Of a DNA stretch of 64,000 bases, positions 37,610 through 62,744 are shown in pieces (positions within the stretch are counted from its first letter, which is position 1; each line of letters begins with the position of its first letter). The position numbers and the translations under genes are program-made. Source of the DNA: a virus. The stretch lies in the IMG/VR virus record IMGVR_UViG_3300005366_000002, positions 1 to 64,000 of that record; one strand, given 5' to 3'. Under the pieces are notes generated by a model. The model searched no databases. It was not told the DNA's origin and saw only the letters and a list, made by a program, of their open reading frames with translations.

Positions 37610-37876
37610 ATGAAACTCGTGCTCCAAGCCAAGCAGCGTCTCCTGGCGCTGACCAAGAAGGTCGAGGCGGCCCCAAAAGGCTCCGACTTCCAGGTGAAGA
37701 TCAACTACGACGATCCGACCGGGAAGGGCATGGCGTCGACCAACGTGATGGTCCGCGACTGCCGCGATGCGGACCATGCCCGCAAGATCTTCAAGGAGCA
37801 GCACGCTCACCACTTCAAGAACGCGAAGATCGAGAAGGTGACGAAGCTCAAGGGCAACGGCCAATCCGAGGACTGA
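37610..37876 (+). CDS. Small tagged protein, 88 aa (LQAKxRLL family)
   Basis: Begins MKLVLQAKQRLLALTKK, the clearest copy of an N-terminal motif shared by six proteins here. The rest is basic and compact (ADHARKIFKEQHAHHFK). It is probably a virion-internal or head-associated protein if the motif is a capsid-targeting tag. AAGGAA precedes the ATG. Confidence 0.7.
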   Translation: MKLVLQAKQRLLALTKKVEAAPKGSDFQVKINYDDPTGKGMASTNVMVRDCRDADHARKIFKEQHAHHFKNAKIEKVTKLKGNGQSED

Positions 37877-37877
37877 C

Positions 37878-38321
37878 ATGGGACAACGACTAGCTCTGCA
37901 AGCCAAGTGGCGCGTCCTCTCGTTCGCCATGATCTTGTCCAACAAGGCCCTCGACCAGTGGCTGACCCAGATGGCGCGCATGAGCGGCCCTCCGGCTGCC
38001 TACGATCAGGATGGTCGCCAGACCGTCATGGAGGCCCTGCGGGTCCATCGGGACCAGAACCCGGTGATCATGGTCGTCGGCGACGCGGCTGGCAACCCGA
38101 TCCACACGTTCACCCTGGGCACGTCCGGCAACATCAAGACCGACAGCCTCAACGGCACCTACGCGGCTGACCACAAGTACCGCGCAGAGATGGGCGATCC
38201 CCGTGGGACCACCAGCCGTGTCGAGCTCCGCGTGATTGCCGTCATCGACGTCGACGAGTTCATGGAGCACTTCGGCCACGAGACGGAGCACGCTCTGCAT
38301 CCGAACCTGAAACACGCCTAG
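37878..38321 (+). CDS. Tagged protein, 147 aa (LQAKxR family)
   Basis: Begins MGQRLALQAKWRVLSFA, a variant of the shared N-terminal motif. The body looks like a mixed alpha/beta fold (NPVIMVVGDAAGNPIHTFTL, VELRVIAVIDVDEFMEHFG). It follows the other tagged gene by one base. Function unknown. Confidence 0.65.
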   Translation: MGQRLALQAKWRVLSFAMILSNKALDQWLTQMARMSGPPAAYDQDGRQTVMEALRVHRDQNPVIMVVGDAAGNPIHTFTLGTSGNIKTDSLNGTYAADHKYRAEMGDPRGTTSRVELRVIAVIDVDEFMEHFGHETEHALHPNLKHA

Positions 38322-38329
38322 GAGGCGCA

Positions 38330-39583
38330 ATGCCGCTGATCGACCGCCGTTCCAATCTGACGCCAGCCAATGGGCGCGCGGCTGACGTGGCGCACCGCCT
38401 GACCGAGGACATCATCCCGCTCCAACAGCAGCGCATGATGGCCGCGTTCCGTGTCCAAGGCGTGCAGGCCATTCTCTACAACCGGCTGAACACCGGCTAC
38501 GCGTGCCCCTGCAAGTCGAAGGAGAAGACCGTGGCCGTCCGGCTCGGCAAGGATGGCCGCGCTGACCCGGGTGCGATCAACGAGGTGCTGACTGGCGAAC
38601 CCAAATTCGGTGTTCGCCCCTACGCGCCTCTGACTCCCGACACCGAGTTCGAGGAGTTCTCCGACTTCGGTGATGGTCCCACGAGCCCCAACAACCAGGT
38701 CTCGCAGTTCATGGGTGACCTCATCAAGGGCGGTGAGGAAGACGGGTTTAACAACCTGATCACCACGGAAGCGTTCGTCGGTTCCGTCGGTCAGACCGAT
38801 CCGGAGATCGACGACCTCTACAAGGAGTACGACCTGGGATCCATCGGGCTCTCCGACGTCTCGTGCCCCATCTGCTTCGGCTCCGGCTACATCGGCGGCT
38901 ACACCCCGTTCCGTGCGTGGCGCCGTGTGGTCGCCGCCACCGAGATCGCGGAGACGTCCCAGACGCTCGACCTGCCTAGCATGGGCCTCCGCGCCGGGAC
39001 CCACAGCTTCGACCTGGTGCTGCCCCGCGGCGCTGTGGTCCTCGATGCGTTCCGCGTCATGAACGGCAAGCTGATCGTCCCTGCGCGCATCTTGATCGAC
39101 GGTACTGACACGGCGAACAAGCGGGTGCTCCAGTGGTTCGACGGGACACCACACAAGGTGACGATTGACTGCCCTACGGAGTTCACGCACTTCGAGGCGC
39201 AGGCAGGTCTGTCCAAAGAGCCCATCTACTTCGAGTTCCCGAAGCGTGGCCGGTCCGGTGACATCTCGCAGCTCGAAAAGATGGAGCCTTTCCAGATCAT
39301 CGTCTCCCCGGATGTCCCGCAGCTCGACACGCTGGACGTGATCATGGAGAGCCAGGAGGGGAAAGCGCTGGTCGTCCAGAGCACCAACCCATGGAACTCG
39401 CGGAACAACCAGTTCCTGGGCTGGGAGTGCATGGTCCGCGTGGCCCAACCGCAGGAGCTCTACTACCTGCTCCCATCCCGCAGCCCCTTCGCTGGCCAGC
39501 GGTCGACCAACGCGGTGGTGCCGAGCAAGCAGACGACCATCAGCGGTCTCTCTGCTGGCGGCACCCAGGGATTCACCTTCTGA
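38330..39583 (+). CDS. Putative virion structural protein, 417 aa
   Basis: The first 160 residues are followed by SCPICFGSGYIGGYTPFRAW, a CPxC-type loop with conserved Gly and aromatic residues, and then a beta-rich body rich in Thr, Asp and Pro with no membrane segment. From memory this composition suits head or tail proteins of large phages. It sits in a run of similar unassigned genes. No family assigned. Confidence 0.6.
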   Translation: MPLIDRRSNLTPANGRAADVAHRLTEDIIPLQQQRMMAAFRVQGVQAILYNRLNTGYACPCKSKEKTVAVRLGKDGRADPGAINEVLTGEPKFGVRPYAPLTPDTEFEEFSDFGDGPTSPNNQVSQFMGDLIKGGEEDGFNNLITTEAFVGSVGQTDPEIDDLYKEYDLGSIGLSDVSCPICFGSGYIGGYTPFRAWRRVVAATEIAETSQTLDLPSMGLRAGTHSFDLVLPRGAVVLDAFRVMNGKLIVPARILIDGTDTANKRVLQWFDGTPHKVTIDCPTEFTHFEAQAGLSKEPIYFEFPKRGRSGDISQLEKMEPFQIIVSPDVPQLDTLDVIMESQEGKALVVQSTNPWNSRNNQFLGWECMVRVAQPQELYYLLPSRSPFAGQRSTNAVVPSKQTTISGLSAGGTQGFTF

Positions 39584-39600
39584 CCTACGAGGAGCAGTCA

Positions 39601-40968
39601 ATGCTCATTGAACCACAAGAACTGAAGGCCAGCTCTGCCGTGCTCCAGAAGCTCAAGGAGATGAGCGACGAGGAGCTGGCTCGTCACGTGACCAACGTGA
39701 ACTGCGCGCTCTCCTGGATGTCCACGCTGGGCCAGGGAACCAAGTCGATTGGTAAGCTCAAGACGATCACCGCTGCATCTGCTCCTGACTGGGACATCAA
39801 GTGCGTGATCGAGGGCCTCCACTGGCTGGGCTCTCTGGCACCTGCGACAGTAGAAGGGCTCACCGAGGTCTACGCGGTGCATGATCACGTGCCGGAGATC
39901 AAGCCTGGGCAGCCCCTGGAGATCGAGCCATCGGAGCCTCTGCTGTGCTGGTCTCCGACGAAGCCAGACCAGATGCGTGACCGCACGATGGAGCCCTCGA
40001 AGGACTACGTGCTGCGACTCCATGACCCGCTGGTCATCTTCGCCTACAACACCATGGACGACCTGGACTTCCCGGCCGTCTCGGTGATCCCGAAGATCAA
40101 CCCACTGCTGGTGGCCCTGAAGAAGCTGCGTGACCGCGCGGAGATCCTGCGAGCCGACCAGATCGTGGTGGTCTTCCACGGGCGTCGGCCGTTCCGTGTG
40201 GATGTCATGCCAGGTCTCGAACGAGAGGAGCCAACGGAAGACCCGGTGCACCAGCAGCTCACGGGTCCCGGCGAACCCATCGAAGAGCCGATCAACGCAT
40301 CTGCCACATCGTCCACTCAGCCTGACCAAGCCGAAGATGAACTCCTGTCCCGACTCATCCGCTCGACCAGCGAGCACGATTTCCACGGTCACGTGGTTCC
40401 TCGCTCCGATGGCTGTCGCGCTAAGTGCGGCGGCCCTCAATCCCGAGTCCTACGTTGCTCCGTCTGCGCCGCAGAAGCCGCTCTTCTCGCAGACGGCCGG
40501 CACCCGCTGAGCGACCCGGAGGTCTACGCGCACATCAGCGCGACGACCCGACGACTGGAGGCCCGCAAGCCGTTCTCGGAGCTGGCCCACAAGATCTCGG
40601 TGGACCTCGGATCGGCCGACGATGAACTGATGAGGTCGCTCGTCAACTTCCTGGGCGCCGTTGCCTGGTGCGGTCAAGTCGGCCACTCCGCGACGATCTC
40701 CATGTTCGTCGATGGTGACGGTGCCGGATCGCTCCGCATCGAAGGGCTGCCGGCTACCGATCTCAAGCTGGGTGCCGCGATGGCAGAAGCCGCGTCGAAC
40801 CACGGAGACTCGCTGATGGTCGAGGTCGGGCCCTCCTCCGCGTCCGCCTACTCGACGCAGTACGATGAACAAGATCGCACCTACTACACGCGCACCTGCG
40901 TGTTCCCGAAATCCGAAGAACCCTCTGAAGAACTCTCCAAAGAACCCAAGTCCAAGGACTCGCAATGA
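39601..40968 (+). CDS. Hypothetical protein, 455 aa, with zinc-type Cys cluster
   Basis: ATG with GAGGAG upstream. The centre has an acidic Pro-rich linker (REEPTEDPVHQQLTGPGE) and then DFHGHVVPRSDGCRAKCG and LRCSVCAAEA, a probable zinc-binding region near 265-300. The last 150 residues contain DLGSADDELMRSLVNFLGAV. Function unknown. It is possibly a neck or baseplate component by location. Confidence 0.6.
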   Translation: MLIEPQELKASSAVLQKLKEMSDEELARHVTNVNCALSWMSTLGQGTKSIGKLKTITAASAPDWDIKCVIEGLHWLGSLAPATVEGLTEVYAVHDHVPEIKPGQPLEIEPSEPLLCWSPTKPDQMRDRTMEPSKDYVLRLHDPLVIFAYNTMDDLDFPAVSVIPKINPLLVALKKLRDRAEILRADQIVVVFHGRRPFRVDVMPGLEREEPTEDPVHQQLTGPGEPIEEPINASATSSTQPDQAEDELLSRLIRSTSEHDFHGHVVPRSDGCRAKCGGPQSRVLRCSVCAAEAALLADGRHPLSDPEVYAHISATTRRLEARKPFSELAHKISVDLGSADDELMRSLVNFLGAVAWCGQVGHSATISMFVDGDGAGSLRIEGLPATDLKLGAAMAEAASNHGDSLMVEVGPSSASAYSTQYDEQDRTYYTRTCVFPKSEEPSEELSKEPKSKDSQ

Positions 40969-42170
40969 ACACCCAAGTGCAAGCCGCTGAAGGCAACCAG
41001 AACTTCCGCTCCATCGAAGAGGTGAAGCGGTATCTCAAGGACCAGGCTTCCGACATCGCCGAGTTCAAGACGGTGTTCGACAAGCAGATGACGCAGATGG
41101 CGCGCATGGTCGCCCGGGCCATCACCGCGTCCGGTGAAACCCAGATCCTCGACTTCTCGGGCTCCGGTGGACGTCGGAAGAAGACGATGAACGTCGACTT
41201 CCCCGTCGTCGAAGTGCCGAACAAGGAAAAGCTCCGCGAGCACTACAAGCTGGCCGAGCTGCTCAGCGAGCGCTACAAGAACCTGACGCAGGCCGAGAAC
41301 GCGATGCGCATGGACTTTGCTGGCGACCAGAGCCCGGCCTTCAAGGAGGCGATGGGCTCGTTCAACAAGCTGAAGTCCCACGTGGAGGCCATGCTGAAGG
41401 AAGTGTTCACGGCGCTCAACCAGATCGCCGAAGGCCACGCTCCCAAGCAGTACCTGAAGTTCGTGAAGGCGCTCGCCGACGAGCTGGAGGCCAACAAGCA
41501 CATCGAGTGCGACGGCCTCCAAACCATGACCTACGCGTCGCTGGACGGTGAAGACAACCTGGTGTTCGCCGGCTACATCATCCTCCTGAACGCCGTGTCG
41601 GACGACCAGAAGATCGTGCCGCACCTCTACATCGTGATCAAGTGGACCGTTGGCGGCAACGTCGAGCTGTTCATCGAGCACGACTTCGTGGCCCCGGGTC
41701 TGCTGAAAGGCGGGATCGTCATCGAGAGCCTGCGGGCCGCCGCATCGGCGATCGCCACGCAGATGGCCCTCGAAGGCTTCTCGTCCCAGATCGGCAACCT
41801 GCCGGTCTCCATGCAGATCAAGGAGCCGGCCGGTGGTCTCCGCAAGGAGGCGTTCTCGGCTGCCGACTGGATCGAGGACGTGAAGGGCGAGGAAGACGCG
41901 CTGGTCTTCGTCCTCAAGACGAGCGATCCCAAGCAGGTGTCGGAGATCCGTGCGCAGATCTACGCGCAGGTCCGGGAGATGCTGAAGCGCAAGCGCAGCA
42001 CCTACGTGAAGATCCACCAGGACGGGCCGAACGTGCTGCGCTACACGTTCTCCAACATCGAGCATGGCGGCGGGATCCACCCGCATGACCTGGAATGGCT
42101 GCGCGACAAGTACAAGCTGGACGACGCGCAGCTCCGCAAGATCGCGAACAACATCAACTCCGGGGAGTAG
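40965..42170 (+). CDS. Hypothetical protein, 401 aa
   Basis: ATGA overlap with the preceding gene. Helical N-terminal 160 residues (SIEEVKRYLKDQASDIAEFK, HVEAMLKEVFTALNQIAEG), then a mixed domain with GYIILLNAV and HLYIVIKWTVGGNVELFIEH. No known family. Location fits a structural or assembly protein. Confidence 0.6.
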   Translation: MNTQVQAAEGNQNFRSIEEVKRYLKDQASDIAEFKTVFDKQMTQMARMVARAITASGETQILDFSGSGGRRKKTMNVDFPVVEVPNKEKLREHYKLAELLSERYKNLTQAENAMRMDFAGDQSPAFKEAMGSFNKLKSHVEAMLKEVFTALNQIAEGHAPKQYLKFVKALADELEANKHIECDGLQTMTYASLDGEDNLVFAGYIILLNAVSDDQKIVPHLYIVIKWTVGGNVELFIEHDFVAPGLLKGGIVIESLRAAASAIATQMALEGFSSQIGNLPVSMQIKEPAGGLRKEAFSAADWIEDVKGEEDALVFVLKTSDPKQVSEIRAQIYAQVREMLKRKRSTYVKIHQDGPNVLRYTFSNIEHGGGIHPHDLEWLRDKYKLDDAQLRKIANNINSGE

Positions 42171-42173
42171 GCC

Positions 42174-42716
42174 ATGCAGGTGCTCGCGGAGGATCTCAAG
42201 CAGTACCTGGCACGCCTCCGTGACGCGTTCGTCATGCTGCCCATGGGGCATGGCGCCTACGGAGTCGTCTACGACCACCCAAGCGATCGTGACATGGTGG
42301 TCAAGATCAGCGCCAACGATCCCGGCTACATGGAGTACGTGAAGTTCTGCATGAACAACAGCGGGAACCGTTGGCTGCCGGAAGTCCATGACGTGCATCT
42401 CCTGGACCTCGACGAGCCGTACGAAGTGTACGCCGTGTTCCTCCAGCGCCTGGAGAAGACGACACCACAGGCTGTGCAGCGCGTGTTCGCCCGTGAGATC
42501 GCTCCGTGGGTGACTTCCTGGGACACCTACAGTGAGCGGACGCGCCTGAGCTTTCCCGAGTGGAAGAACGTGCTGCGGACTGCCCCTGACCCGCAGACGC
42601 GGCGACTCGCCCAGTTCCTGATCACCCACTTCAACCGGCTGGATCTGCTCAACCAGAACTTCATGCAGCGTGGCTCCCAGGTCGTGTTCAACGATCCGCT
42701 GACGCCCATCAAGTAG
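42174..42716 (+). CDS. Protein kinase-like N-lobe protein, 180 aa
   Basis: Residues 25-47 (GHGAYGVVYDHPSD then MVVKI) look like a Gly-rich loop and VxK of a protein kinase (Lys44). LPEVHDVHL and VYAVFLQRLEKTT would be the N-lobe strands and hinge. The end (VVFNDPLTP) could be the remnant of the NxxDxx metal loop. At 180 residues it lacks a full catalytic loop, so it is either a minimal phage kinase-like fold or a pseudokinase. Starts three bases after the previous stop. Confidence 0.45.
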   Translation: MQVLAEDLKQYLARLRDAFVMLPMGHGAYGVVYDHPSDRDMVVKISANDPGYMEYVKFCMNNSGNRWLPEVHDVHLLDLDEPYEVYAVFLQRLEKTTPQAVQRVFAREIAPWVTSWDTYSERTRLSFPEWKNVLRTAPDPQTRRLAQFLITHFNRLDLLNQNFMQRGSQVVFNDPLTPIK

Positions 42717-42726
42717 AGGACAGAAG

Positions 42727-43713
42727 ATGAACAAACTCAACGCGGAGTCCCGGCTCCTCACAGCAGGTCTGCCCATCGAGGAGCGGCTGGCCCGTCTCGA
42801 GAACCGCCGTGAAGGTGACGGGCTCATGACGCCCCAGACAAGCCGCCACGAGGACACGGCGATCGAGGAGCAACTCGACACGCCCATGCACCCGGTGGAC
42901 AACATGGACGTCCAGTGCGAGGAGCCGCTGCCTGTCGTGGCCAAGCCGCTGTCGCAGCAGGTGCAGGTCATGGACCAGAAGCTCCAACAGCAAGACCAGG
43001 CTGACGCCGAGTTCCAGGCCAAGGAAGGCGAGAAGAAGGCCAAGGCCAACCAGAAGGCGCGCCTGGGAGCGTCCGCCGAGGGCCACCCGATCTCCGAGTG
43101 GGACGTGCACCTGCCTGTCTCCTACAACGAGGACGACGGCACGATGAACATCCGCGTGCTCTCCGTGATCGCCCGTGGTGCCGAAGAGGCCGTCGAGTTC
43201 GCGGAAGCCAAGTGGAAGTTCATGCAGGCCTCGCCGGTTCAGCCGGTGAAGGCCGGTCGTGGCACCGGCTTCGGCGCTGGCGTGCTGCTCATGGCTGCTG
43301 ACACCGGCCGGATCTTCCTGGCCAAGCGGTCCTCCAAGGGCGATGAAGGTGGCACCTGGTGCTGCGGTGGCGGTGGCGTCGAGGACTACGAGACCATCGA
43401 AGAGGCGGCGCGCCGCGAGAACATGGAGGAGCTGGGCTTCGACCTGAAGGGCGTGCAGTTGCTCCACATGCACCGGTCCGTCCAGCCTGGTTTCATCTTC
43501 CACAACCACATGGCAGTCATCCCGCATGAACTGGAAGCGCGTCTCAACGACGAGCACAGCGAGTGTGGCTGGTTCTCCGACCTGCCCGAGCCGATGCATC
43601 CGAAGCTCATGGAGGCGATCAACACCTGGGCGGCCGCCCACGCCGACAACGAGCTGGTGAAGCAGGCCCAGGCGGAGGAAATGGCGAGCAAGATGGGCAA
43701 GGCAAACCAATAG
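42727..43713 (+). CDS. Nudix hydrolase with N-terminal tag and coiled-coil linker
   Basis: The N-terminus MNKLNAESRLLTAG resembles the LQAKxRLL tag. Residues 70-115 are a Gln/Lys/Glu coiled coil. A Nudix domain follows, with the box at 214-238: GGGGVEDYE then REUXEEXGU as RENMEELGF. Preceding CCGG and KRSSKGDEGGTW fit. The substrate is unknown. The tag suggests it could be packaged in the virion. Confidence 0.75.
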   Translation: MNKLNAESRLLTAGLPIEERLARLENRREGDGLMTPQTSRHEDTAIEEQLDTPMHPVDNMDVQCEEPLPVVAKPLSQQVQVMDQKLQQQDQADAEFQAKEGEKKAKANQKARLGASAEGHPISEWDVHLPVSYNEDDGTMNIRVLSVIARGAEEAVEFAEAKWKFMQASPVQPVKAGRGTGFGAGVLLMAADTGRIFLAKRSSKGDEGGTWCCGGGGVEDYETIEEAARRENMEELGFDLKGVQLLHMHRSVQPGFIFHNHMAVIPHELEARLNDEHSECGWFSDLPEPMHPKLMEAINTWAAAHADNELVKQAQAEEMASKMGKANQ

Positions 43714-43726
43714 ACGAGGGTCGATC

Positions 43727-44740
43727 ATGCGTCTCCAAGAGGTCAAGACTTTCCTGACCAAGCGTGGCTTCAACGGCCTCCAGTATGTGTCGCATTCGGA
43801 GGAGACGAAGACCTTCAACTTCAAGTACACCGAGTTCAACGACTACCACATGGGTATCGAGCCTACGGTGGCCGCCAAGGGCCAGGTCGCGGTCTACAAC
43901 ATCCCCGAGGTCGGCAAGATCGGGGTGAGTCCCGCAAACCGGATGGTCCGGTTCATCGACGCCGGCAAGGCGATCGCCAAGAAGGCGGTCAACGACTCCC
44001 ATCTCGGATTCGTCGAGGTCACGCCGGAGCTCACCGAGTTGTTCAACAAGGCCGTGACCAACTCGACGCAGCGCGTGCCCTACATGAAGGCTTTGTGGCA
44101 CTACCTGAACACTGAGAAGTTCCAGGGCCGCATGCGAGAGCCGGAGTTGAAGACCGGTCCGAGGAGTGGGAGCCGCCACAAGAACGCCCGCGGTGTCTAC
44201 TTCTCGACGAACTGGCACTCGAACGGTCCTGGCAAGATCTGGATGGCCGACTTCATGTTCAACGCGCGCGAGCCGTTCTTCCTGGAGGTCTTCCTCCACG
44301 AGATGTGCCACCAGGCTGCGCGTGAGATCGACCGCGACAGCTCCTTCGACGAGCAAGGCCACGGTCCCGTCTGGCAGAAGTGGATGCGCCACGCTGGCCT
44401 CGATCCCCGCCGCTTCGACCCGACTGACGACTACGAGTACAAGAGCACCGACGAGACGATGCACCAGGAGGAGCAGCTCGACGAGCAGTTTGGGCCACGT
44501 CAGGACGGTGCTGCGCTGGCGAAGCTGAAGAAGCTCACCAAGTTCGAACCAGGCCCTTGCTTCTACGTCTACAAGTCGCGGGCCATCCGAGGCGTGCTCC
44601 AGATGGGCTTCGACGGCAAGTCCGTGATCTTCGAGTTCAAGAATCCGAAGGGGCAGACCCGCATGCTCAGCTGGAAGACGCTGAAGCTGTTCAACAGCGG
44701 CAAGCAGGGCGGTCTGATCCACTGCTACCATATCAACTGA
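43727..44740 (+). CDS. SprT-like metalloprotease-domain protein, 337 aa
   Basis: HEMCH (191-195) is the zinc protease motif and HGPVWQKWM (H212) supplies the third ligand, the SprT/Spartan layout HExxH...H. The upstream segment FFLEVFLHEMCHQA sits in the helix. Family members cleave proteins bound to DNA or act as metallopeptidases. A phage role in removing host proteins from DNA, or in virion processing, is inference. The C-terminal 90 residues are a beta-rich domain (FYVYKSRAIRGVLQMGFDG). Confidence 0.7.
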   Translation: MRLQEVKTFLTKRGFNGLQYVSHSEETKTFNFKYTEFNDYHMGIEPTVAAKGQVAVYNIPEVGKIGVSPANRMVRFIDAGKAIAKKAVNDSHLGFVEVTPELTELFNKAVTNSTQRVPYMKALWHYLNTEKFQGRMREPELKTGPRSGSRHKNARGVYFSTNWHSNGPGKIWMADFMFNAREPFFLEVFLHEMCHQAAREIDRDSSFDEQGHGPVWQKWMRHAGLDPRRFDPTDDYEYKSTDETMHQEEQLDEQFGPRQDGAALAKLKKLTKFEPGPCFYVYKSRAIRGVLQMGFDGKSVIFEFKNPKGQTRMLSWKTLKLFNSGKQGGLIHCYHIN

Positions 44741-44749
44741 GGACTTCTC

Positions 44750-46231
44750 ATGAACCTCTTCGTGTTCACCAAGACCGCGGCCGACATCGTGAACCAGCTG
44801 AGCCCGCAGCTGAATCCGGGCGAGACCATCACGTCGATCACGCCTGCGGCTGCCACACCGGTGACGGCCAACTCGCCGTCGCTCTCGATCTCCAGCGGGA
44901 CCGCCGTGCCCATCCAGTTCACGGTGACTGGCGGTGACACAGGCGTGACCTACGGGTTCCCGCTGACCATCGTGACCTCGCTGCGCACGTTCGTTGTGAC
45001 GATCGCTGTGAACGTCCTGTCTGACACGTTCGACCCGTACCCGAACGCGGACCCCAACTCGTACCAGGACCTGGTGGGCAACATCCAGGCCGGCAAGACC
45101 GCGCTGTCCCGTACCGCCATCGTGTTCCCCCCGACCTTCGACGCCTCGGGCGCCTACGTCACGTGGGACATCCTCGACGAGGAGGGCACGATCTACGCCT
45201 CGGGCAATGCATTCGACCTGGTGATCAAGAACAACGGGATCGCCAACACAGTCATTGCCCGCTCCCTGATCAACATCCCGGCTGACATCCCGCCGTCGCC
45301 GGATGCCCCGTACCAGCTGCGATACACGCTGAAGGTCGCCGGCCAGAACTTCTACCAGTCCGAGGCGATCCAGGTCACCGGGCTCGTCGACATCCAGGTG
45401 GGGACCGTCGACCAGATCGAGATGCAAGGCGACCCTGCGCAGCTCTCGCTGGTCACTTCGGTGCTCTACCAGAACTACGTGATGGAGCTCCGCAAGGACG
45501 GCGACCTGATTGCGAGCCTCGCGATCACCCAAGACCCGGAGCGTGTCCAACAAGGCTACTGGGTCGGAGCCTCCATGGACACGACGGCCATGGTGCCCAC
45601 GTGGGAGCCCTACCAGGTCGTGTGGAAGTTCTGGAACGACCCGAACCAGATCTTCCGCGAGGCCAGCTCTCTGTGGATCGTCACCGACTCGATGATCAAC
45701 GCCATCGAGGACGTGAAGTCCAAGGTCAACAAGGCACGGCAGACCCTGTACGGGACTCCTGACTCGCAGTTCCCGTCCACCGAGATCTCGAAGTGGCTGC
45801 GGCGCGGCATGGACCTGTTCAACGGCTGGCAGGGTCAGTTCACGTCGTTCACCATGACCAAGGCCAAGGGCGTCGTCCGTGAGTACTGGCTGCTCTGCGC
45901 CGAGAAGTCTGCGCTGGAGGCCCAGTACCTCATGGAAGGCGAGAAGGCGTTCAACTTCGCGGGCGCCAACATCAGCCTGGACGTGGACCGCACGTCCTAC
46001 CTGGACAACATGGCCTCGAAGATCCAGTCGCAGCTCGACAACGATCTCAAGCCGATCAAGGTCAACCTCATCGTGAAAGGAAATACCAGTGGCGATGGTT
46101 CCGGCCCGAACGGCGATGGGAACTTCTCGGCTCTCCAGCGCGGTGCGATGGGCAGCGTGCATCTGACGTTGACGACTGCGTCCCTGTACGGCGGTGGTTT
46201 CGGCTGGGGCCGTGGCGGTGTTCCCTTCTGA
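44750..46231 (+). CDS. Putative virion protein with Ig-like domains, 493 aa
   Basis: The first 110 residues are Thr/Ser/Pro/Val-rich beta strands (TITSITPAAATPVTANSPS), typical of Ig-like or decoration domains. Residues 130-330 are beta-rich (YVTWDILDEEGTIYASGN). The rest is helical (DSMINAIEDVKSKVNKARQ) and ends in a Gly-rich tail (GGGFGWGRGGVPF). This is the profile of a baseplate or tail structural protein. No family assigned. Confidence 0.65.
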   Translation: MNLFVFTKTAADIVNQLSPQLNPGETITSITPAAATPVTANSPSLSISSGTAVPIQFTVTGGDTGVTYGFPLTIVTSLRTFVVTIAVNVLSDTFDPYPNADPNSYQDLVGNIQAGKTALSRTAIVFPPTFDASGAYVTWDILDEEGTIYASGNAFDLVIKNNGIANTVIARSLINIPADIPPSPDAPYQLRYTLKVAGQNFYQSEAIQVTGLVDIQVGTVDQIEMQGDPAQLSLVTSVLYQNYVMELRKDGDLIASLAITQDPERVQQGYWVGASMDTTAMVPTWEPYQVVWKFWNDPNQIFREASSLWIVTDSMINAIEDVKSKVNKARQTLYGTPDSQFPSTEISKWLRRGMDLFNGWQGQFTSFTMTKAKGVVREYWLLCAEKSALEAQYLMEGEKAFNFAGANISLDVDRTSYLDNMASKIQSQLDNDLKPIKVNLIVKGNTSGDGSGPNGDGNFSALQRGAMGSVHLTLTTASLYGGGFGWGRGGVPF

Positions 46232-46240
46232 GTGACGAGC

Positions 46241-53883: not shown

Positions 53884-54102
53884 ATGACTCGTCGACTCGT
53901 CCTCCAGGCCAAGCAGCGCCTGGCTGAATCCAAAGTGATCGCCAAGATCGGACCGATCAAGCACGGCGACTTCCATCGCTGGCTCGGCAAGTCCGAGGAC
54001 GAGCCCATCACGGAAGCCGACATCGCCAAGGGCAAGGCCGCCGGCGGACACGCTGCCAAGATGGCGCAGTTCGCGGAGAACGCCAAGCACTGGCACCACT
54101 GA
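53884..54102 (+). CDS. Small tagged protein, 72 aa (LQAKxRL family)
   Basis: Begins MTRRLVLQAKQRLAESK, the shared N-terminal motif. The rest is Lys/Ala/Glu-rich and basic (AKGKAAGGHAAKMAQF), like a small internal head protein. AGG at low spacing precedes the ATG. Confidence 0.65.
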   Translation: MTRRLVLQAKQRLAESKVIAKIGPIKHGDFHRWLGKSEDEPITEADIAKGKAAGGHAAKMAQFAENAKHWHH

Positions 54103-54132
54103 AGGTCTGTGGAAGCCGAACAAAGGAACATG

Positions 54133-54753
54133 ATGCAAACGCTGAAACTCCAAGCCAAGGAACGACTGCTGGCGACTGCCGACATCGTGCAGGACACGGT
54201 GCCTCCGTCGTCTTACGTCGCAGCTGACGTGGACGAGGACGCGCGCACCGAGCTGGAACGCCAGCTGGGCAAGGCGGAACACGGCGAGCACGAAGCCGAG
54301 AAGGCCGGTGACGACGTCGCCGAGAGCCGCTACAAGGACCTGATGAGCGAAATGGACACCGCATTGTCGCACGGCTCCGATTCGGTCGCAGCCGTGAAGG
54401 CCAACGACACGTCGGATCAACCCGGCATGACGGTCGCTGATCCCGCGCTGCGTCCCCAGATGCAGCACGCACTGGGCCCGGAAGGCATGCTGACGCTCAA
54501 CGCCTCGCTGTTCAACGAGACGGAGCTGAAGGAGCTGGCCCAGCTGAACGCCAAGGACTCGCTGGTTCAAGCCGACACGGAAGACCCGATCTCCGACGGC
54601 GCCGCCTACGACCTGCTGGTCGATGGCGATCCGTCCGAAGAGGAGCCGGTCGTCCAGGAACTGACGAACAACGACGGCTCCACGGAAGCGCCGGACGATC
54701 AGCCCCTGCTGGTCGACGACGTGCCGCCTGCCATCCCGGTCATGAAGGCCTGA
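54133..54753 (+). CDS. Acidic tagged protein, 206 aa (LQAKxRLL family)
   Basis: I start at the ATG at 54133 (MQTLKLQAKERLLATAD), with AAAGGA upstream. An extra ATG at 54130 is possible. The N-terminus has the shared motif. The body is acidic and low-complexity (EHGEHEAEKAGDDVAESR, DDQPLLVDDVPPAIPVM). It fits an internal or scaffold-type head protein. Confidence 0.7.
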   Translation: MQTLKLQAKERLLATADIVQDTVPPSSYVAADVDEDARTELERQLGKAEHGEHEAEKAGDDVAESRYKDLMSEMDTALSHGSDSVAAVKANDTSDQPGMTVADPALRPQMQHALGPEGMLTLNASLFNETELKELAQLNAKDSLVQADTEDPISDGAAYDLLVDGDPSEEEPVVQELTNNDGSTEAPDDQPLLVDDVPPAIPVMKA

Positions 54754-54773
54754 TCGGAGCTCCAGGAGCGAAC

Positions 54774-54781
54774 GATAAATA
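54774..54781 (+). promoter_or_regulatory. GATAAATA late-type promoter element
   Basis: AACGATAAATAGAGG lies nine bases before the ATG at 54791. ATAAATA is the closest match here to T4 TATAAATA. Confidence 0.55.
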
Positions 54782-54790
54782 GAGGTCACT

Positions 54791-55480: not shown

Positions 55481-55809
55481 GCAAAGAGCTGACCTTCACC
55501 TGGAACCGCGACGGTGCCGAAGGGGACGTCAGCGCTGTCTCGTTTCCTCAGGCGCTGGATCGCGCGAAGGTCCAGTTCCTGAAGAAGAGGGGCTGCGGTC
55601 CCGGGACCGCCAAGTTCCGCATCAACAAGGAAGAACTGCGCGATCGGTTCTTCAAGATCGGGCTCAGTCCGCTGACGTTTCAGCGGTACAAGGAGCTCTA
55701 CCTGGGCTTCAAGGAGGATCAGCTGAGTCCGGCTGACCTGGAGGAGCTCGCCCAATTCCAATCGTTCTACAAAGCAAGGTCTGCATATGAACACGAGTAC
55801 AAGCGCTGA
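55477..55809 (+). CDS. Hypothetical protein, 110 aa
   Basis: ATGA overlap with the previous gene. Basic and helical (VSFPQALDRAKVQFLKKRG, NKEELRDRFFKIG). Its last 23 bases overlap the start of the giant helicase gene, so expression may be coupled. Confidence 0.6.
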   Translation: MSKELTFTWNRDGAEGDVSAVSFPQALDRAKVQFLKKRGCGPGTAKFRINKEELRDRFFKIGLSPLTFQRYKELYLGFKEDQLSPADLEELAQFQSFYKARSAYEHEYKR

Positions 55810-58800
55810 ACGCCAAGCTCTCGTCGAAGCCCACCTGGCGGTTCGCCCGATGACGAACCTCGTCCCGCACGAGGAGTTCGCGCTGACCAAGGAGCAGCTG
55901 AACAGCGGCTTCATGGGTGTCTTCAACTGGAACTATGAAGGCGATCCCCGCAAGACCCTGCTGAAGGTCGCGCTGGGTCCCATCATGGACATGACGGCCA
56001 TGATCACCGGCAAGATGCCGGTCGGCAAGACCGAGGAAGACCGCAAGAACCGGAAGCTGAAGAACCAGAGCCTCCGCAAGTTCGCCGAGAACCGCCTGAA
56101 GTCCAACCTGGCGCAGTACACGACGCTCCAGAAGGTCAACAAGGGCGACGACTCCTACTTCCTGGTCGGCCTCCCGATCGCGAAGTTCACGGGTCCCGAC
56201 AGCGCGGCTGCCCTGATCTCCCTGTTCGACGGCCCGGCCTTGACCGAGGAAGGTCGCGCCAACATCGAATCGTCCATGAAGAACGTGGACGAGAAGTCGG
56301 TGGCCGTGTTCCCCGCTGCCCAGGCCCTGAAGGGCGCTGGCCTCGCCCCGAAGGCCATGAAGGTCTTCAGCGAAGCTCTCGTCGACGTGCGCTACAAGAC
56401 CGTCCAGGGTCAGGGCACGATGATGTTCCTGACCCTGAAGCTCGACAAGGCTGCCGCGCAGTACATCACGAGCCAGGACTGGGTCGAGATCCGTCCGTCT
56501 GACGTGTACCCGCTGATGGTCGGCTGGGTCGAGGCCGAGTACGTGTCGGTCAACTACGGCAAGACGTCTATGTCGATGTCGAAGATCGCGACGACGCTGC
56601 CCAAGCACCTGCCGGGTGACGAGCGCGTCGACGCCTTCAACATCGGCATCCTCACCTCCGGCGAGCCCATCTGGATTCCCAAGGAGTGCGACAACACGGA
56701 GCGCTACGAGTCCATGTACTCGGCGGCCGGCTCCAAGGAGAACGGCGAGTTCGCGCTGCGTCAGCTGGGCCAAGAAGTCGAGCCGCATCTGCCGAACAAC
56801 ATCCCGATCCTCACCGACTGGGTCAACAACAAGTTCACGTACTCGAACTCCGTGGGCAAGCCGGTCATCCTCGACCTGGCCCACCTGCGCAAGTGCACCG
56901 CCTCGATGGCGCTCAACGTCCTTCGCCGGGACATGAGCGAGGACTACGTCAAGACCATCAGCTACTACGCGAAGGAGTGCCGCGTCTCGATCGCCGCAAC
57001 CGACTACGGCGCCACGTCGGTCCTCGGTGCCTTCGGCTCGAAGCCGAACCTCGAGATCGGCGACTACGCGGTCTTCGCCTTCAAGACCTGGATGGAGATC
57101 ACGAAGAGCGCGCACCTGCGCTACTACGACGTGATGGACAGCCTGACCCTGAAGGCTGACAACGAGGGCACGCCGGTCACCAAGGACTCGATCGTCGACA
57201 ACCCGGAGATGTTGCTCGAGCCAATCGCGCGGTTCATCAAGGCCCTCGTGCCGTCGATGATCGCCAACCTCGAGGCTCTGTTCGTCCGCTACGCCGTCAA
57301 GACCATGACGGAGCAGCTCGGCCTGCTGGCTCTCCTGGCCAACTACGGTGCGGACCTGACAAAGACGACGGTCGAGTCCAACACGATCAACAAGGCTGCG
57401 CTCCAGCAGGGCGTCCTGCCTGGGTGGACTCCGCCTCCGATCCCGCTCCTGACCTCGAAGTTCCAGTCGGAGAACGGCGGTCTCCTGCCTCACCAGCTGA
57501 AGATCCGCAACATCCTGCGTGACCGTCCTGACCTGGCTGCCCTGCCGGTCGATGCCGGTGGCGGCAAGTCCATGCTGGCCATCACGGATGTCCTGAACGA
57601 GGTGGCGGCTGGCGAGAGCGCTCCGTACCTGGTGATGTGCCCGTCCCACCTGGTCGCCAACTACGTGTCGGAGATCGTGGAGTTCACGGATGGCAAGGTC
57701 AACGTGATCCCGGTCACGACCTACAACATCCAGACGACTGGCCTCAAGCGCTTCCAGGAGATCCTGGAGACGGCGCCGATCAACACGATCCTCGTGGTCG
57801 ACTACGACTGCCTGAAGTACATGGGTCGTGCCACGGTCTACGGTACTTCGACGATCTACGTCTACCCGATCGTGGAGATGATCCGCCGCTTCAAGCCTGG
57901 CTACGTCTTCATGGACGAGTCGCACTTCCTGCGCAACGCCGGCAACGCCCGCTTCAAGGCGGTGATGACGCTGGTCGCTGACATCAAGAAGAAGCGCGTG
58001 GCGTCCGGTACGATGAACCCGGACAGCCCGTCTGACCTGCCGGGCCAGATGGCGATCCTCGACCCGACGATCTTCGGCACGCGTGCCCAGTTCAACGCGA
58101 AGTACGGCGACAAGGTCAGTGGCAACCGCGTGCTGTCCTGGAAGACGACGGGTCCTGACTCGATCAACACCGTGCTGCCGACGCTGCAGAACTCGGTGGT
58201 CTGGGCTCCGGCCAAGCGCAAGGAGTGGGCGTGCGCGCTGCCTCCGCGTCGCGACCGCTTCCTCGCCGTCACGCTGACGGACGCGCAGATGGCGGTCTAC
58301 GACGCTCTGTTCGACGAGATGGTGGAGTCGATCCGCAAGAAGGCCGAGACCGACAAGAACGCGAAGAAGCTGCTGGACAAGCTGACCGGCAAGGCCGCGA
58401 CCGCCGAAGACGAGGCCGCGTTCTCCGACCTGGGCGGCGACAAGGAGAAGGGCGACGCTGAAGGCGGTGACGACGAGGAGGATGAAGACGAAGAGGACGT
58501 GGGTCCTGCGCTGCAACCCTACCTCGCCAACATCGAGCGGTTCGTCAGCAACCCTGCGTGGCACCCGTACGCCAAGCATGGTTTCAAGGATCGCAACGGC
58601 AAGGTCCACCCACCTCTCTCCGGTGAAGACCTGATCTCGCCGAAGGCTCGCGAGCTGGCGAAGCAACTGAAGCTCTACCTGGACTCGCACGAGACCAAGG
58701 CGCTGATCTTCACGAACTACAACGAGACCACCGACTCGCTGTTCAACGCGATGCCGGAGGAACTCCGGTCCTGCGGTCTGCTGTACAAGACCGGCAACAA

Positions 58801-60739
58801 GACCGAGTTCGTGAACCGTTTCAAGACGGACCCGAAGATCCGCTGGATGATCGGCATCCGCAAGTCGCTCGAAGTCGGTCTGAACCTCCAGCAAGCCGGC
58901 TACCTGGTCCGCATGGAAGGCGTGTGGAACCCAGGCGAGCAGGAGCAGGGTGACTCCCGGATCGAACGCCCGAACTTCTCGGTTCAGGGCGACCAGCGGA
59001 CAGAGCTGCTGTTCGACACGATCGTGGCCAACTACACGATCGACATCACCAAGGCCGCGCGTCTGCGTGCCAAGATCGTGGCGCTCGCCAAGTTCGACAA
59101 CTCGCGGAACCCCGCGTACAACGACGAAGCGATCCCGCCGATCCCGGTCATCCCGATGAACCTGGAGACGATCAAGACGATGAACGACTTCAACTCGAAC
59201 CTGGCCAAGTACCAGTCGTCGATGAAGGCGCTCAACGACATCACGCAGGCCGAGTATAAGGAGTACAAGGAGCAGACGATCGCCGAGGGCGGCTTCAAGT
59301 TCACGCAAGTCGAGCAGGCGCCGGTTCCTCCGGGTGCGGCCATGCTGGCCCGCGTGCCTTACGCCCAAGGCACCGAGCTCTACAGCGCCAAGGAGATGGG
59401 GCTGATCCGCGTCGACAACTACCTGGGCATGGAGCTGACCCAGGAGGACGAGGAAGGCGACGACGAGACGCCGGAAGTCGAAGACGACAGCACCGACTCG
59501 GAAGTCGTGAAGGAGCAGCGCGCGAAGGTCATGGGCAAGCGTTGCCACTGCGAGTTCGGCGACGGTCGCATCAGCGGTGCGGCTGCGATCGGCGGCAAGG
59601 GCTTCGTGACCCGGATCAACGTGGCGCTCGACGACGGGACTGCGGCGGTCAAGCTGAAGGCGACCAACGTGTTCATCATGACGCGTACGGAGACCAACGG
59701 CATCGACATGCGGAACAAGCTGGCGCAAGCGGCCGGCCTGGAGGTCACTGCTCCGATCACCGTGCCTGGTACGGTCATCCGCAATCGTCGCATCACCCGC
59801 AAGGAGATCGAGGAGCGCGAAGCCGAGCAGAAGAAGCAGGCGGTGCAGAAGAAGAGCCTGTTCGTCGAGAAGAAGTCGAAGCTGGCGGTCAACCTCGAGC
59901 TGACGCTGATGAACGGCTACATCCGGCTGTCCTACGCGATGGGCGAGAACGACACGGCGTCCAAGGCGCTCCAGGCCCTGGGCTTCCGCAAGGATCCCAG
60001 CTACTACGAGACCCGCGTCCGCTCTGCGTCTCAGCTGATCAAGCAGGCGAAGCTCTGGGTGGAGCATGGTCTCGACACGACGAACGCGACCGACAACGAC
60101 GCGTTCGAACTGCTGTTCGACGAGCTGCAAGGTGGCAACCTCTCGCACCCGAAGCTCTACACGCAGCTGGTGTCGAAGCCAGGGTTCAACAACTTCATGC
60201 GCCAGGAGTTCAAGCCGAGCGCCGACAAGACCAAGCTCAACCTGTTCGCCCTGGTCGTCAACGACGGCCACACGAACATGGCGGAGCAGGCCGACGCGGC
60301 GAAGCAAGAGCGTGAGCCCTCCTACGGTGTGATCTATATGTGCCTGCCCGCAGGCCCTGGTCACCCGGCTTCGAAGATCGCGATCAGCCCGCAGATGAAG
60401 CACCCGTCGACCCGCTGGTTCCTCAGCTCGCCGACGCTGTCCATCTTCGTCAACAACTCCATGGGAGCGCGGAAGGTGCTGAAGTCCATCATGGACGCCG
60501 GCATCGTCATCGAGAACATGGACGAGCTGAAGCGTGACAACGCGCGCCTCAAGCTGGCACGCCTCGCCAAGGACGACGAGTTCATCGACGTCCACGCTGA
60601 TCCGGAGACCAACTCCGGTGATGACGACGAGGATCCGGACGAACGCCGCGAGCTCCAGCGCAAGACGAAGATGAACCGTGAGCAGGCTCCGAAGAAGCCG
60701 GTGAAGCCGGTGCCGAAGAAGCCTGCTGGTCGTCGCTGA
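55787..60739 (+). CDS. Giant SNF2-type helicase, 1650 aa
   Basis: The helicase core spans about 560-1070: motif I VDAGGGKSMLA (588-598), motif II FMDESHFL (709-716), motif III SGTMNP, motif IV ALIFTNYNET, motif V EVGLNLQQAGYLVRMEG and motif VI EQGDSRIERPN near 1055. This is the SNF2/SWI2 pattern. The first 550 residues have no known domain. An acidic linker (DDEEDEDEEDVG) lies near 900-910 inside the core. The C-terminal 550 residues are partly repetitive with basic Lys-rich tracts. Such proteins in large phages may be virion-associated or remodel DNA. The ATG lies 23 bases inside the previous gene, with AAGGT upstream. Confidence 0.85.
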   Translation: MNTSTSAERQALVEAHLAVRPMTNLVPHEEFALTKEQLNSGFMGVFNWNYEGDPRKTLLKVALGPIMDMTAMITGKMPVGKTEEDRKNRKLKNQSLRKFAENRLKSNLAQYTTLQKVNKGDDSYFLVGLPIAKFTGPDSAAALISLFDGPALTEEGRANIESSMKNVDEKSVAVFPAAQALKGAGLAPKAMKVFSEALVDVRYKTVQGQGTMMFLTLKLDKAAAQYITSQDWVEIRPSDVYPLMVGWVEAEYVSVNYGKTSMSMSKIATTLPKHLPGDERVDAFNIGILTSGEPIWIPKECDNTERYESMYSAAGSKENGEFALRQLGQEVEPHLPNNIPILTDWVNNKFTYSNSVGKPVILDLAHLRKCTASMALNVLRRDMSEDYVKTISYYAKECRVSIAATDYGATSVLGAFGSKPNLEIGDYAVFAFKTWMEITKSAHLRYYDVMDSLTLKADNEGTPVTKDSIVDNPEMLLEPIARFIKALVPSMIANLEALFVRYAVKTMTEQLGLLALLANYGADLTKTTVESNTINKAALQQGVLPGWTPPPIPLLTSKFQSENGGLLPHQLKIRNILRDRPDLAALPVDAGGGKSMLAITDVLNEVAAGESAPYLVMCPSHLVANYVSEIVEFTDGKVNVIPVTTYNIQTTGLKRFQEILETAPINTILVVDYDCLKYMGRATVYGTSTIYVYPIVEMIRRFKPGYVFMDESHFLRNAGNARFKAVMTLVADIKKKRVASGTMNPDSPSDLPGQMAILDPTIFGTRAQFNAKYGDKVSGNRVLSWKTTGPDSINTVLPTLQNSVVWAPAKRKEWACALPPRRDRFLAVTLTDAQMAVYDALFDEMVESIRKKAETDKNAKKLLDKLTGKAATAEDEAAFSDLGGDKEKGDAEGGDDEEDEDEEDVGPALQPYLANIERFVSNPAWHPYAKHGFKDRNGKVHPPLSGEDLISPKARELAKQLKLYLDSHETKALIFTNYNETTDSLFNAMPEELRSCGLLYKTGNKTEFVNRFKTDPKIRWMIGIRKSLEVGLNLQQAGYLVRMEGVWNPGEQEQGDSRIERPNFSVQGDQRTELLFDTIVANYTIDITKAARLRAKIVALAKFDNSRNPAYNDEAIPPIPVIPMNLETIKTMNDFNSNLAKYQSSMKALNDITQAEYKEYKEQTIAEGGFKFTQVEQAPVPPGAAMLARVPYAQGTELYSAKEMGLIRVDNYLGMELTQEDEEGDDETPEVEDDSTDSEVVKEQRAKVMGKRCHCEFGDGRISGAAAIGGKGFVTRINVALDDGTAAVKLKATNVFIMTRTETNGIDMRNKLAQAAGLEVTAPITVPGTVIRNRRITRKEIEEREAEQKKQAVQKKSLFVEKKSKLAVNLELTLMNGYIRLSYAMGENDTASKALQALGFRKDPSYYETRVRSASQLIKQAKLWVEHGLDTTNATDNDAFELLFDELQGGNLSHPKLYTQLVSKPGFNNFMRQEFKPSADKTKLNLFALVVNDGHTNMAEQADAAKQEREPSYGVIYMCLPAGPGHPASKIAISPQMKHPSTRWFLSSPTLSIFVNNSMGARKVLKSIMDAGIVIENMDELKRDNARLKLARLAKDDEFIDVHADPETNSGDDDEDPDERRELQRKTKMNREQAPKKPVKPVPKKPAGRR

Positions 60740-60751
60740 CCTGCGCAGTCC

Positions 60752-60760
60752 GCAATTTCA
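60752..60760 (+). promoter_or_regulatory. GCAATTTCA intergenic motif
   Basis: Lies 13 bases past the helicase stop and before a hairpin and the next gene. One base differs from GCAATTTTA. Confidence 0.4.
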
Positions 60761-60770
60761 TGAAGCACAC

Positions 60771-60791
60771 GGGGCACCCTCGCGGTGCCCC
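60771..60791 (+). other. Strong hairpin between helicase and coiled-coil gene
   Basis: GGGGCACC and GGTGCCCC form an eight-base-pair stem with loop CTCGC. It lacks a T tract and is followed 21 bases later by a start codon. It may terminate the helicase transcript or be a leader hairpin of the next gene. Confidence 0.65.
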
Positions 60792-60812
60792 TCCCAACAT
60801 CAAGGAACAACC

Positions 60813-61328
60813 ATGCTGACCCTGAAGCAAGCAATGATCGAAGCCGGACACGTCCTCAGCGAGGGCGAAGGCTTCCTCGTCTCCGAGTTCCAGAAGGTCC
60901 GCGACTTTCTCCACAGCTCGGGCTTCGCCCACATCGGCGACAACTTCCACCTCTACGAGCAGGAAGTGGCGAAGCGCGCTGCCACCGTGAAGACTGTCGT
61001 CGAGGACGACGTCGCAAAGATCGAGGCGGCTGCGAAGAAGGCGGCGGAAGAAGCGGAGGCCGCCAAGGCCAAGGCCGAACAACTGGCGGCGGAAGCCAAG
61101 GCTGCCGAGGAGAAGGCCGTCGAGGAAGCGAAGAAGCTGGAAGCGGAGGCCAAGGCTGCCGCTGAAGCTGCTGCCGCCGAGACGGCGCGTGTCGCCGCGG
61201 AAGCTGCCGCCGCTGCGAACGCCGTCAAGGACGAGGCGACCAAGCTGGCCGGCCCTGCCGCTGAAGACGCCGAAGAAGGTGCGGCGTCCGAAGAAGCCGG
61301 CGACGCCGACCAAGCCCACAAGGAGTAA
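60813..61328 (+). CDS. Ala/Glu/Lys coiled-coil protein, 171 aa
   Basis: Residues 50-150 are a continuous Ala/Glu/Lys helix (AKIEAAAKKAAEEAEAAKAK and similar) typical of a coiled coil. The first 50 residues look globular. A scaffold or head-core protein would fit, since the prohead-type protease lies two genes on. AAGGAA precedes the ATG. Confidence 0.6.
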   Translation: MLTLKQAMIEAGHVLSEGEGFLVSEFQKVRDFLHSSGFAHIGDNFHLYEQEVAKRAATVKTVVEDDVAKIEAAAKKAAEEAEAAKAKAEQLAAEAKAAEEKAVEEAKKLEAEAKAAAEAAAAETARVAAEAAAAANAVKDEATKLAGPAAEDAEEGAASEEAGDADQAHKE

Positions 61329-61331
61329 ACG

Positions 61332-61751
61332 ATGGCCCGAATCATTGGCAACGCCGGTCCCGGCATGAACCCGACGCGCACTGGTTCGGGTATCGACAAG
61401 CGCCGTTCCCCGTTCGCCCGCATCACGATCATCGCTGACGAAGACGGCGACGTCTTCCGTCTCCCGTCGTCCGATCTGTTCCCGAAGTTCGCCCAGGTCT
61501 ACCAGGGCATCTTCGTGCAAGGCCAAGGGCTGACTGGTGGCACGGTCCAGGTGGACGCGACGCTGGTTCCCGCTGACCAGGCGCTGAACCCTGCGCAGGA
61601 CACGCCGGAGACCGGCGAGCAGTCCATCTGGCACGCGGACACCACGGTGGCCGTCGGCAACGCGATCTCCAAGCTGAGCTGCCCGTGCCCCTCGGCTCTT
61701 CGCATCACGTTCGCCAAGAAGGGCACGCTGCTCCACCTGGTGGGAGTCTGA
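61332..61751 (+). CDS. Putative virion protein, 139 aa
   Basis: Beta-rich with a basic N-terminus (MARIIGNAGPGMNPTRTG), FARITIIADEDGDVFRL and ALRITFAKKGTLLHLVGV. This is the size and make-up of a head decoration or small structural protein. Starts three bases after the preceding stop with AAGGAG upstream. Confidence 0.6.
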   Translation: MARIIGNAGPGMNPTRTGSGIDKRRSPFARITIIADEDGDVFRLPSSDLFPKFAQVYQGIFVQGQGLTGGTVQVDATLVPADQALNPAQDTPETGEQSIWHADTTVAVGNAISKLSCPCPSALRITFAKKGTLLHLVGV

Positions 61752-61752
61752 C

Positions 61753-62520
61753 ATGGGCTTTCCTCGACAATACTTCGACTCCGAAGAGCGAGCACGACTG
61801 CTGACGGCGGCTCAGCTCATCAAGGGCGTCGGCATTTCCCAGGAGCCTGCGGTCGATCTGGAGCACGCTCCCGAGATCATCAGCCGTCTCGACTTCGAGA
61901 CGTGGCTCCCGTTCGCGGCGAAGACGTACCACATCAGCCCGCGCATCGAGGACTACATCCTCAAGGCGATGCCGATCTGCCCGTCGGACTTCCCGAACCG
62001 CAACGGCATCGGGTTCCCGCTCGCCGAGCTGATCAAGTTCCAACCGCCGCCGATCAATCGACAGGTCTTCAAGGCCTGGACTGGCTGCCCGGTGCATCTG
62101 GAGCATGACAACGAGGACTGCACCAAAGCCTACGGTGTGATCTTCGACACGGCGCTGACGGCGATCTCCAAGTACGGCCAGGGCAAGCACTACAAGGTCA
62201 TGGGCCTCGTCGGGATCGACAAGACCAAGTACCCGGACATCGCGCAGGAGGTGATGGAGGGCAAGATCATCACCGGCTCCATGGGAGCGATGGCTGACGC
62301 GTTCACCTGTTCCGTCTGCGGCCGTGAAGCCCACGAGAACAAGTTCATGAACTGCGGCCACGTGGGCTCCACCAAGGAGGTCAACTGGCGGTACGTGGAC
62401 TACCAGGGCAAGCGCCACATCGCGTACCTCAACGCGCACGGCCTCTCGCCGATCGAGTACTCCCTGGTTCGCGACCCTGCGTGGGTCACGGCCCTGTCTG
62501 ACCACCAGATGAGCTGGTGA
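61753..62520 (+). CDS. Prohead-type serine protease with zinc ribbon
   Basis: WTGCPVHLEHDNED carries the candidate catalytic His (H115 or H118). KVMGLVGIDKTKYPD and KIITGSMGAMADAF carry the candidate Ser (S176) in an SMG motif, and CSVCG with CGH (C186, C189, C201, H203) forms a zinc ribbon typical of phage head-maturation proteases of this type. The enzyme would cleave head proteins during prohead assembly. 255 residues is usual. Two bases separate it from the previous gene. Confidence 0.65.
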   Translation: MGFPRQYFDSEERARLLTAAQLIKGVGISQEPAVDLEHAPEIISRLDFETWLPFAAKTYHISPRIEDYILKAMPICPSDFPNRNGIGFPLAELIKFQPPPINRQVFKAWTGCPVHLEHDNEDCTKAYGVIFDTALTAISKYGQGKHYKVMGLVGIDKTKYPDIAQEVMEGKIITGSMGAMADAFTCSVCGREAHENKFMNCGHVGSTKEVNWRYVDYQGKRHIAYLNAHGLSPIEYSLVRDPAWVTALSDHQMSW

Positions 62521-62531
62521 CCTGAACTCAA

Positions 62532-62551
62532 CGACCATCATCGACCATCAT
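62532..62551 (+). repeat. Tandem repeat CGACCATCAT x2
   Basis: Two copies of CGACCATCAT lie between the protease gene and the next gene, just before its ribosome site. Confidence 0.6.
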
Positions 62552-62561
62552 CGAGGAACTC

Positions 62562-62744
62562 ATGAAGAACCCGTACATCCGCAAGCTCGACCTGCAGGCG
62601 AAGTCGCGTCTGCAAGCCAGCACCAGTCTCCACGGAGACGACTACACGTCCGTGCCCAACGCCGAGAAGAACAGCGTCGGGCAGAAGCTGAACAACGGGG
62701 GCTCGGAAGCCCAGAAGGTCCAGCTGGCGTCCAAGAAGAAGTAA
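62562..62744 (+). CDS. Small tagged protein, 60 aa (LQAKxR family)
   Basis: Residues 6-16 (IRKLDLQAKSR) carry the shared motif after MKNPY. The rest is polar and Lys-rich (VQLASKKK end). It lies directly after the protease gene, which supports a link between the motif and head maturation. GAGGAA precedes the ATG. Confidence 0.65.
   Translation: MKNPYIRKLDLQAKSRLQASTSLHGDDYTSVPNAEKNSVGQKLNNGGSEAQKVQLASKKK

Follow-up and report, generated by a model that had tools for sequence, protein, structure and literature searches.

A selected N-terminal tag on unrelated phage proteins: a candidate capsid-targeting propeptide

Within one clade of phages, many otherwise unrelated proteins start with the same short peptide, [LI]-[QN]-A-x-x-R-L-x-A, often with a small residue next. 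The tag is N-terminal, it is conserved as a peptide, and it is spread through the clade. On the 104-kb virus contig G000 it is carried by 14 proteins. The evidence is good that this N-terminal tag is under selection and that the proteins behind it are not homologous. From the analogy to phage T4, the tag is probably a capsid-targeting propeptide, directing cargo to the phage head.

Tagged genes of the contig

The window, the whole stretch of DNA that we analysed, comprises bases 1-64000 of the 104,105-base contig G000. A first-pass annotation had picked out six N-terminal starts in it as similar, on proteins with differing bodies. All six N-termini are present in the letters as read, and a strict regular expression applied to the six frames of the window matches exactly these six sites and nowhere else. 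Each tag lies on the plus strand, 3-10 residues downstream of an ATG (Table 1); for the gene at 54133, an alternative ATG exists at 54130. A looser pattern also matches at 36775, but in the wrong frame. By BLASTP the bodies are unrelated, apart from an indirect link between 37610 and 37878, which arises solely from the two matching different parts of one relative protein. Among 103 candidate tagged ORFs, some of them false positives, BLASTP left 62 singletons.

Table 1. Tagged genes and selected neighbours in the window (contig coordinates)
Feature	Coordinates	Strand	Tag or evidence
Tagged gene, 88 aa, function unassigned	37610..37876	+	LQAKQRLLA at 37622-37648
Tagged gene, 147 aa, function unassigned	37878..38321	+	LQAKWRVLS at 37896-37922
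Tagged Nudix hydrolase, 328 aa	42727..43713	+	LNAESRLLT at 42736-42762; Nudix domain at residues 183-284
SprT-like protein, untagged (MRLQEVKTFLTK)	43727..44740	+	PF10263, E=9.2e-10; tagged homologue in G008
Head-tail connector protein, untagged	44750..46231	+	phrog_17327, E=1.8e-58
Tagged gene, 72 aa, basic	53884..54102	+	LQAKQRLAE at 53902-53928
Tagged gene, 206 aa, acidic (pI 4.1)	54133..54753	+	LQAKERLLA at 54148-54174
Head maturation protease, presumed processing enzyme	61753..62520	+	phrog_18299, E=5.9e-75; BcepSauron and Motura homologues annotated likewise
Tagged gene, 60 aa, between head protease and scaffold	62562..62744	+	LQAKSRLQA at 62592-62618
Scaffold-like gene, start, untagged (begins MTKTVRAAS)	63939..64000 (63939-65435 of contig)	+	acidic; between protease and major capsid gene; homologues in all relatives

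Of the six tags, that of the Nudix protein diverges most. The protein behind it matches PF00293 (E=3.6e-15) with 56.6 bits against a curated cut-off of 21.1, which identifies it as a Nudix hydrolase. AlphaFold gave a mean pLDDT of 43 for this protein from a single sequence, and a pLDDT of 45 for the family of the tagged gene at 75138 from five sequences; with such values neither model was good enough to search for similar folds.

More tagged starts were to be looked for across the genome according to the first-pass annotation, and a search of the rest of the contig added eight (71589, 71975, 72219, 73546, 73983, 75138, 76097 and 77296). All 14 genes lie on the plus strand between 37.6 and 77.6 kb. 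Their proposed location among virion genes was borne out: the block holds the genes for the head-tail connector, the head maturation protease, the major capsid protein (phrog_2522, E=4e-89), the tail sheath and the tail tube, and the tagged gene at 62562 does follow directly on the protease. The product of 63939-65435 we take to be the scaffold. The capsid protein, scaffold and protease are themselves without the tag, as are the other structural proteins and the SNF2-type helicase and ribonucleotide reductase encoded in the same block.

Two untagged neighbours are recorded here. The catalytic core of a type IB topoisomerase (35885-37579; PF01028, E=1.1e-16) directly precedes the first two tagged genes, and a 180-aa protein (42174-42716) just upstream of the Nudix gene has a weak match to phrog_15752, a phage protein kinase family (E=5e-7). 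Neither an Rfam scan nor a tRNA scan of the window returned a match.

Shape and specificity of the motif

We curated 61 tags, and their consensus is [LI]-[QNKE]-A-[KAR]-x-R-L-x-A. The near-invariance of A3 and R6 in this set stems partly from selecting tags on these residues; L1, L7 and A9 are less affected. Residue 9 is A in 51 of the 61 tags and E in three. Of the 61 tags, 34 are directly followed by A, S or T, compared to 23% in controls (p=2e-8), a bias that is expected beside a cleavage site.

The first-pass annotation had itself raised the case that the motif might be equally common at random N-termini of the genome. The tag is commoner than chance. With a PSSM built leaving out the genome under test, six related genomes together gave 54 N-terminal matches and one internal match. 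The N-terminal matches number 11 in G000 (with none internal in its 317 ORFs), 11 in G001, 10 in G006, 7 in G008, 12 in Motura and 3 in BcepSauron; the single internal match is in Motura, and there is none in G001, G006, G008 or BcepSauron. The 2,684 ORFs of five outgroups (PaBG, GR7B, Aura, PhiXhv-15 and T4) contain no match. Neither does G005, a relative with another dialect of the tag. One stretch that fits the pattern, LRASYRVMS in the conserved 76461 family, is internal and was excluded.

The tag can also be found unsupervised, as N-terminal 9-mers common to ORFs of one genome that begin at Shine-Dalgarno-filtered ATG starts. Clustering the N-termini gave 28 similar pairs, compared to three for internal windows, and one component of 10 members. 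The dominant group per genome has 10 members in G000, 8 in G001 and 13 in Motura. In BcepSauron it has 4, a size that internal windows also reach by chance. Inside several of the small, acidic tagged proteins lies another tag-like stretch (BcepSauron gp77, 14762 on contig L069 and 71975 on G000).

It is the peptide that is conserved. Synonymous codons vary at the invariant tag residues, which means that selection works at the peptide level; a DNA-level element was rejected on the same ground. The residues L3, A5, R8 and L9 of the tag do not vary among orthologues with about 65% identity. Tagged orthologues exist for the gene at 53884 in G006 and L005, and for the gene at 54133 in G001, G006 and L005.

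Dialects and gene turnover in related phages

Searches with the protease and the capsid protein led to BcepSaruman/BcepSauron, Motura and about 30 IMG/VR contigs. Some tagged relatives are thus cultured phages; no cultured phage near-identical to G000 was found. The predicted tagged proteins are gp158-gp164, gp168, gp170, gp171, gp174-gp177 and gp197 in the Achromobacter phage Motura, and gp75, gp77, gp91 and gp99 in the Burkholderia phage BcepSauron. Much of the clade has tags, in lineage dialects. Close relatives use LQAKxRLLA, several relatives at 66-68% capsid identity use LNAAxRLxA, and Motura uses IQAAxRLxA. In G005 (IMGVR_UViG_3300045391_000822), whose capsid protein is 64% identical, the unsupervised search revealed a shorter dialect, [FIYL]A[EQN]R[VI][LI][AS], at nine N-termini. 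The core common to all dialects is R-[LVI]-x-[AS]. Within a genome, dialect changes are shared by genes that are otherwise unrelated. No tag was seen in PaBG, GR7B, Aura and PhiXhv-15, whose capsid proteins are 35-40% identical; hence the tag either arose inside the clade or was lost outside it.

A module, W[WF]...QK.YL.EHP.SK, recurs in tagged proteins: in BcepSauron gp75 (L032:13276-15003), at L017:6244-6741, and at 109448 and 101660 in G005. It is sometimes repeated along with an internal tag-like stretch. Proteins with this module bear the tag of their own lineage at the same place (ITAKHRLVE in BcepSauron gp75, LQAKTRLRA in G003 and FAERILA in G005). For BcepSauron gp93 (L033:13406-13645), the annotated start is 132 bases upstream of the tag, and an internal ATG would make the tag N-terminal; the tag is internal unless the annotated start is wrong.

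Tags are carried by several enzymes. In G001 and G006 an RNase_T family exonuclease is tagged, and its homology to oligoribonuclease starts just past the tag. The SprT-like protease is tagged in G008, and so is a DUF3175 protein, whose BcepSauron counterpart is marginal. Nudix homologues are tagged in G000, G001, G006, G008 and BcepSauron (gp99); the Motura homologue lies among other genes and is untagged, and the Nudix protein of G005 possibly has a dialect copy, FANRALA, about 15 residues after a GTG. The tagged Motura gp162 (L026:3059-3580) looked like an ADP-ribosyltransferase by eye from its LYHGTTADLP start. Sequence searches of Pfam, NCBIfam and PDB came back empty for it, and this assignment was dropped.

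Tagged genes come and go. The slot between protease and scaffold (62520-63939 in the window) holds tagged genes of varying content in nine contigs: 60 aa in G000, 122 and 87 aa in L053, 116 aa in G001, 234 aa in L004, 123 aa in L066, 129 aa in L074, 216 aa in L067, 170 and 84 aa in L069, and 123 aa in L073. The gene of G001 is homologous to L053 and that of L067 to L069; most others are not homologous. The corresponding slot of Motura and BcepSauron has no tagged gene. Elsewhere, L054 (15314-15700) has one whole extra tagged gene that L053 lacks at 15314. The two contigs are 98-100% identical around this gene and part at its start codon; the codons of the tags differ. Finally, the adjacent ORFs 37610 and 37878 correspond to one fused ORF in G001 with a single N-terminal tag and only LQA retained at the junction, as one would expect with one tag per polypeptide.

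Probable capsid targeting and its alternatives

The strongest reason to read the tag as capsid-targeting is a positive control. In T4, the same unsupervised search returns ipI, ipII and ipIII together with the hypothetical gene 61.1 as its top group, and thereby recovers the known capsid-targeted proteins IPI, IPII and IPIII. T4 alt also surfaces, but paired with its known duplicate. Besides this control, head targeting is suggested by the encoded protease, the turnover between protease and scaffold, the tagged enzymes and the small residue after the tag.

If the tag targets the head, it would dock cargo in the prohead core during head assembly, binding there to the scaffold or to the capsid protein's inner face. 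A cut by the head maturation protease would probably follow, after A9, that is, between [LI]-x-A and the A, S or T that follows. The cut would free the cargo inside the head, and the freed cargo would enter the host along with the DNA. This cargo would include the Nudix hydrolase in G000, and the oligoribonuclease-like exonuclease and the SprT-like protease in relatives. We infer docking to the core, cleavage and ejection, and the position of the cut, after [LI]xA, is a guess. Close to their N-termini, the capsid protein, the scaffold and most proteases compared likewise contain the proposed site, [LIVM]-x-A, but so common a tripeptide makes this a weak point.

Gene position speaks for the head less clearly, because many tagged genes adjoin the tail-tube and connector genes, and position next to both does not separate head from tail. 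The tag could instead send cargo to the tail-tube lumen or the baseplate, like the N-terminal signals of contractile injection systems. Eight of the tagged genes of G000 come after the tail-tube gene, and in BcepSauron gp75 and gp77 lie on either side of the tube gene, gp76. However, since head and tail genes lie in a single block, adjacency to the tube gene means little, and other tagged genes sit between head protease and scaffold or, as the tagged blocks of Motura and BcepSauron do, beside the connector. In number and total size the tagged proteins also seem a better fit for a head than for a tube lumen. We consider a tail address unlikely.

Short linear motifs of such length serve many intracellular roles. 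The tag might thus have nothing to do with the virion and act in the infected cell instead, addressing for example a phage compartment, a host chaperone, a host protease or a common binding partner. Tagged genes are, however, confined to the virion block, and the genes for replication and nucleotide metabolism inside it (helicase, ribonucleotide reductase) are untagged. Moreover, an account of nucleus-forming phages does not mention Motura, BcepSauron or PaBG. An intracellular signal is in our view quite unlikely. Already disfavoured, and highly improbable, is a tag without peptide function (a remnant of gene duplication or tail-swapping, or a copied DNA or translation-start element): although the break between L053 and L054 exactly at the tag boundary indicates that recombination joints can form in the tag region, residues stay while codons vary, they are invariant among diverged orthologues, and dialects shift together on unrelated genes of a genome.

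Comparison of the capsid-targeting reading with T4 shows how far the analogy goes. The T4 capsid-targeting sequence of IPI, IPII, IPIII and Alt, processed by gp21 (PMC9026906), is likewise a short N-terminal peptide of about ten residues on unrelated proteins, in a phage that encodes a head maturation protease and whose cargo is poorly conserved and exchangeable. For T4 IPIII the first ten residues are enough for targeting, with residues 4 and 7 mattering for targeting and residues 8 and 10 for processing by gp21; several cuts are made in each of the core proteins gp22 and gp67 (PMC9026906). The layout of our tag is comparable: it varies at the start, is conserved in the middle and closes with L-x-A, behind which small residues follow, so that here too targeting determinants may come first and processing determinants last. 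In contrast, [LI]xAxxRLxA and the T4 sequence MKTYQEFIAE have no common pattern, the tag PSSM finds nothing in T4, and the [LI]xE motif at which gp21 cleaves is absent from the tag. There are also 14 tagged proteins here compared to a handful in T4, and ours are putative virion proteins. The best reading is that the tag works like the T4 signal; because the [LI]xE motif is absent, we do not class it as one. The proposal of the first-pass annotation, an analogous tag that brings cargo into the head, is partly supported: the selected tag on unrelated proteins stands, and a head role is its best explanation.

We are evenly divided on a stronger claim: that one interchangeable address, [LI]xAxxRLxA, acts as a general cargo port. 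At least ten unrelated proteins per genome, enzymes included, would be loaded into the head by it and released by a protease cleaving behind [LI]xA and not behind Glu, and cargo genes would be swapped while the address drifts into dialects. If this is true, then sequence alone tells which proteins these phages inject, each gene that begins with the tag being a predicted head cargo. The Nudix, oligoribonuclease-like and SprT-like proteins would be candidate early takeover enzymes, together with many proteins of unassigned function, and a second well-populated capsid-address system would be available for comparison with T4.

Our literature searches, which covered few subscription journals, found neither a description of this tag nor a virion proteome of any phage in the clade. 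Related cases exist. In phage P1 an N-terminal stretch also sends DarB to the capsid, and 30 residues suffice for a reporter; DarB is, however, one large protein, and the parts of the study available to us describe no short motif common to many proteins (PMC9024508). SPN3US and other phiKZ-type phages, which are large as well, mature their heads proteolytically, have N-terminal propeptides on head proteins and prefer a small residue (Ser) after the cut, as our tag does. They differ in that they cut after AxE and in that their propeptides are mostly 111-254 residues long, and the portion of that work available to us describes no short tag common to many proteins (PMC10052503). In PaBG, an untagged relative, the capsid protein and other virion proteins are proteolytically processed (PMC7412058), which documents an active head protease in the wider group. 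Three PaBG proteins (198038, 198742 and 203107) have a GLTRIP-like N-terminal start in common, which is unrelated to the tag.
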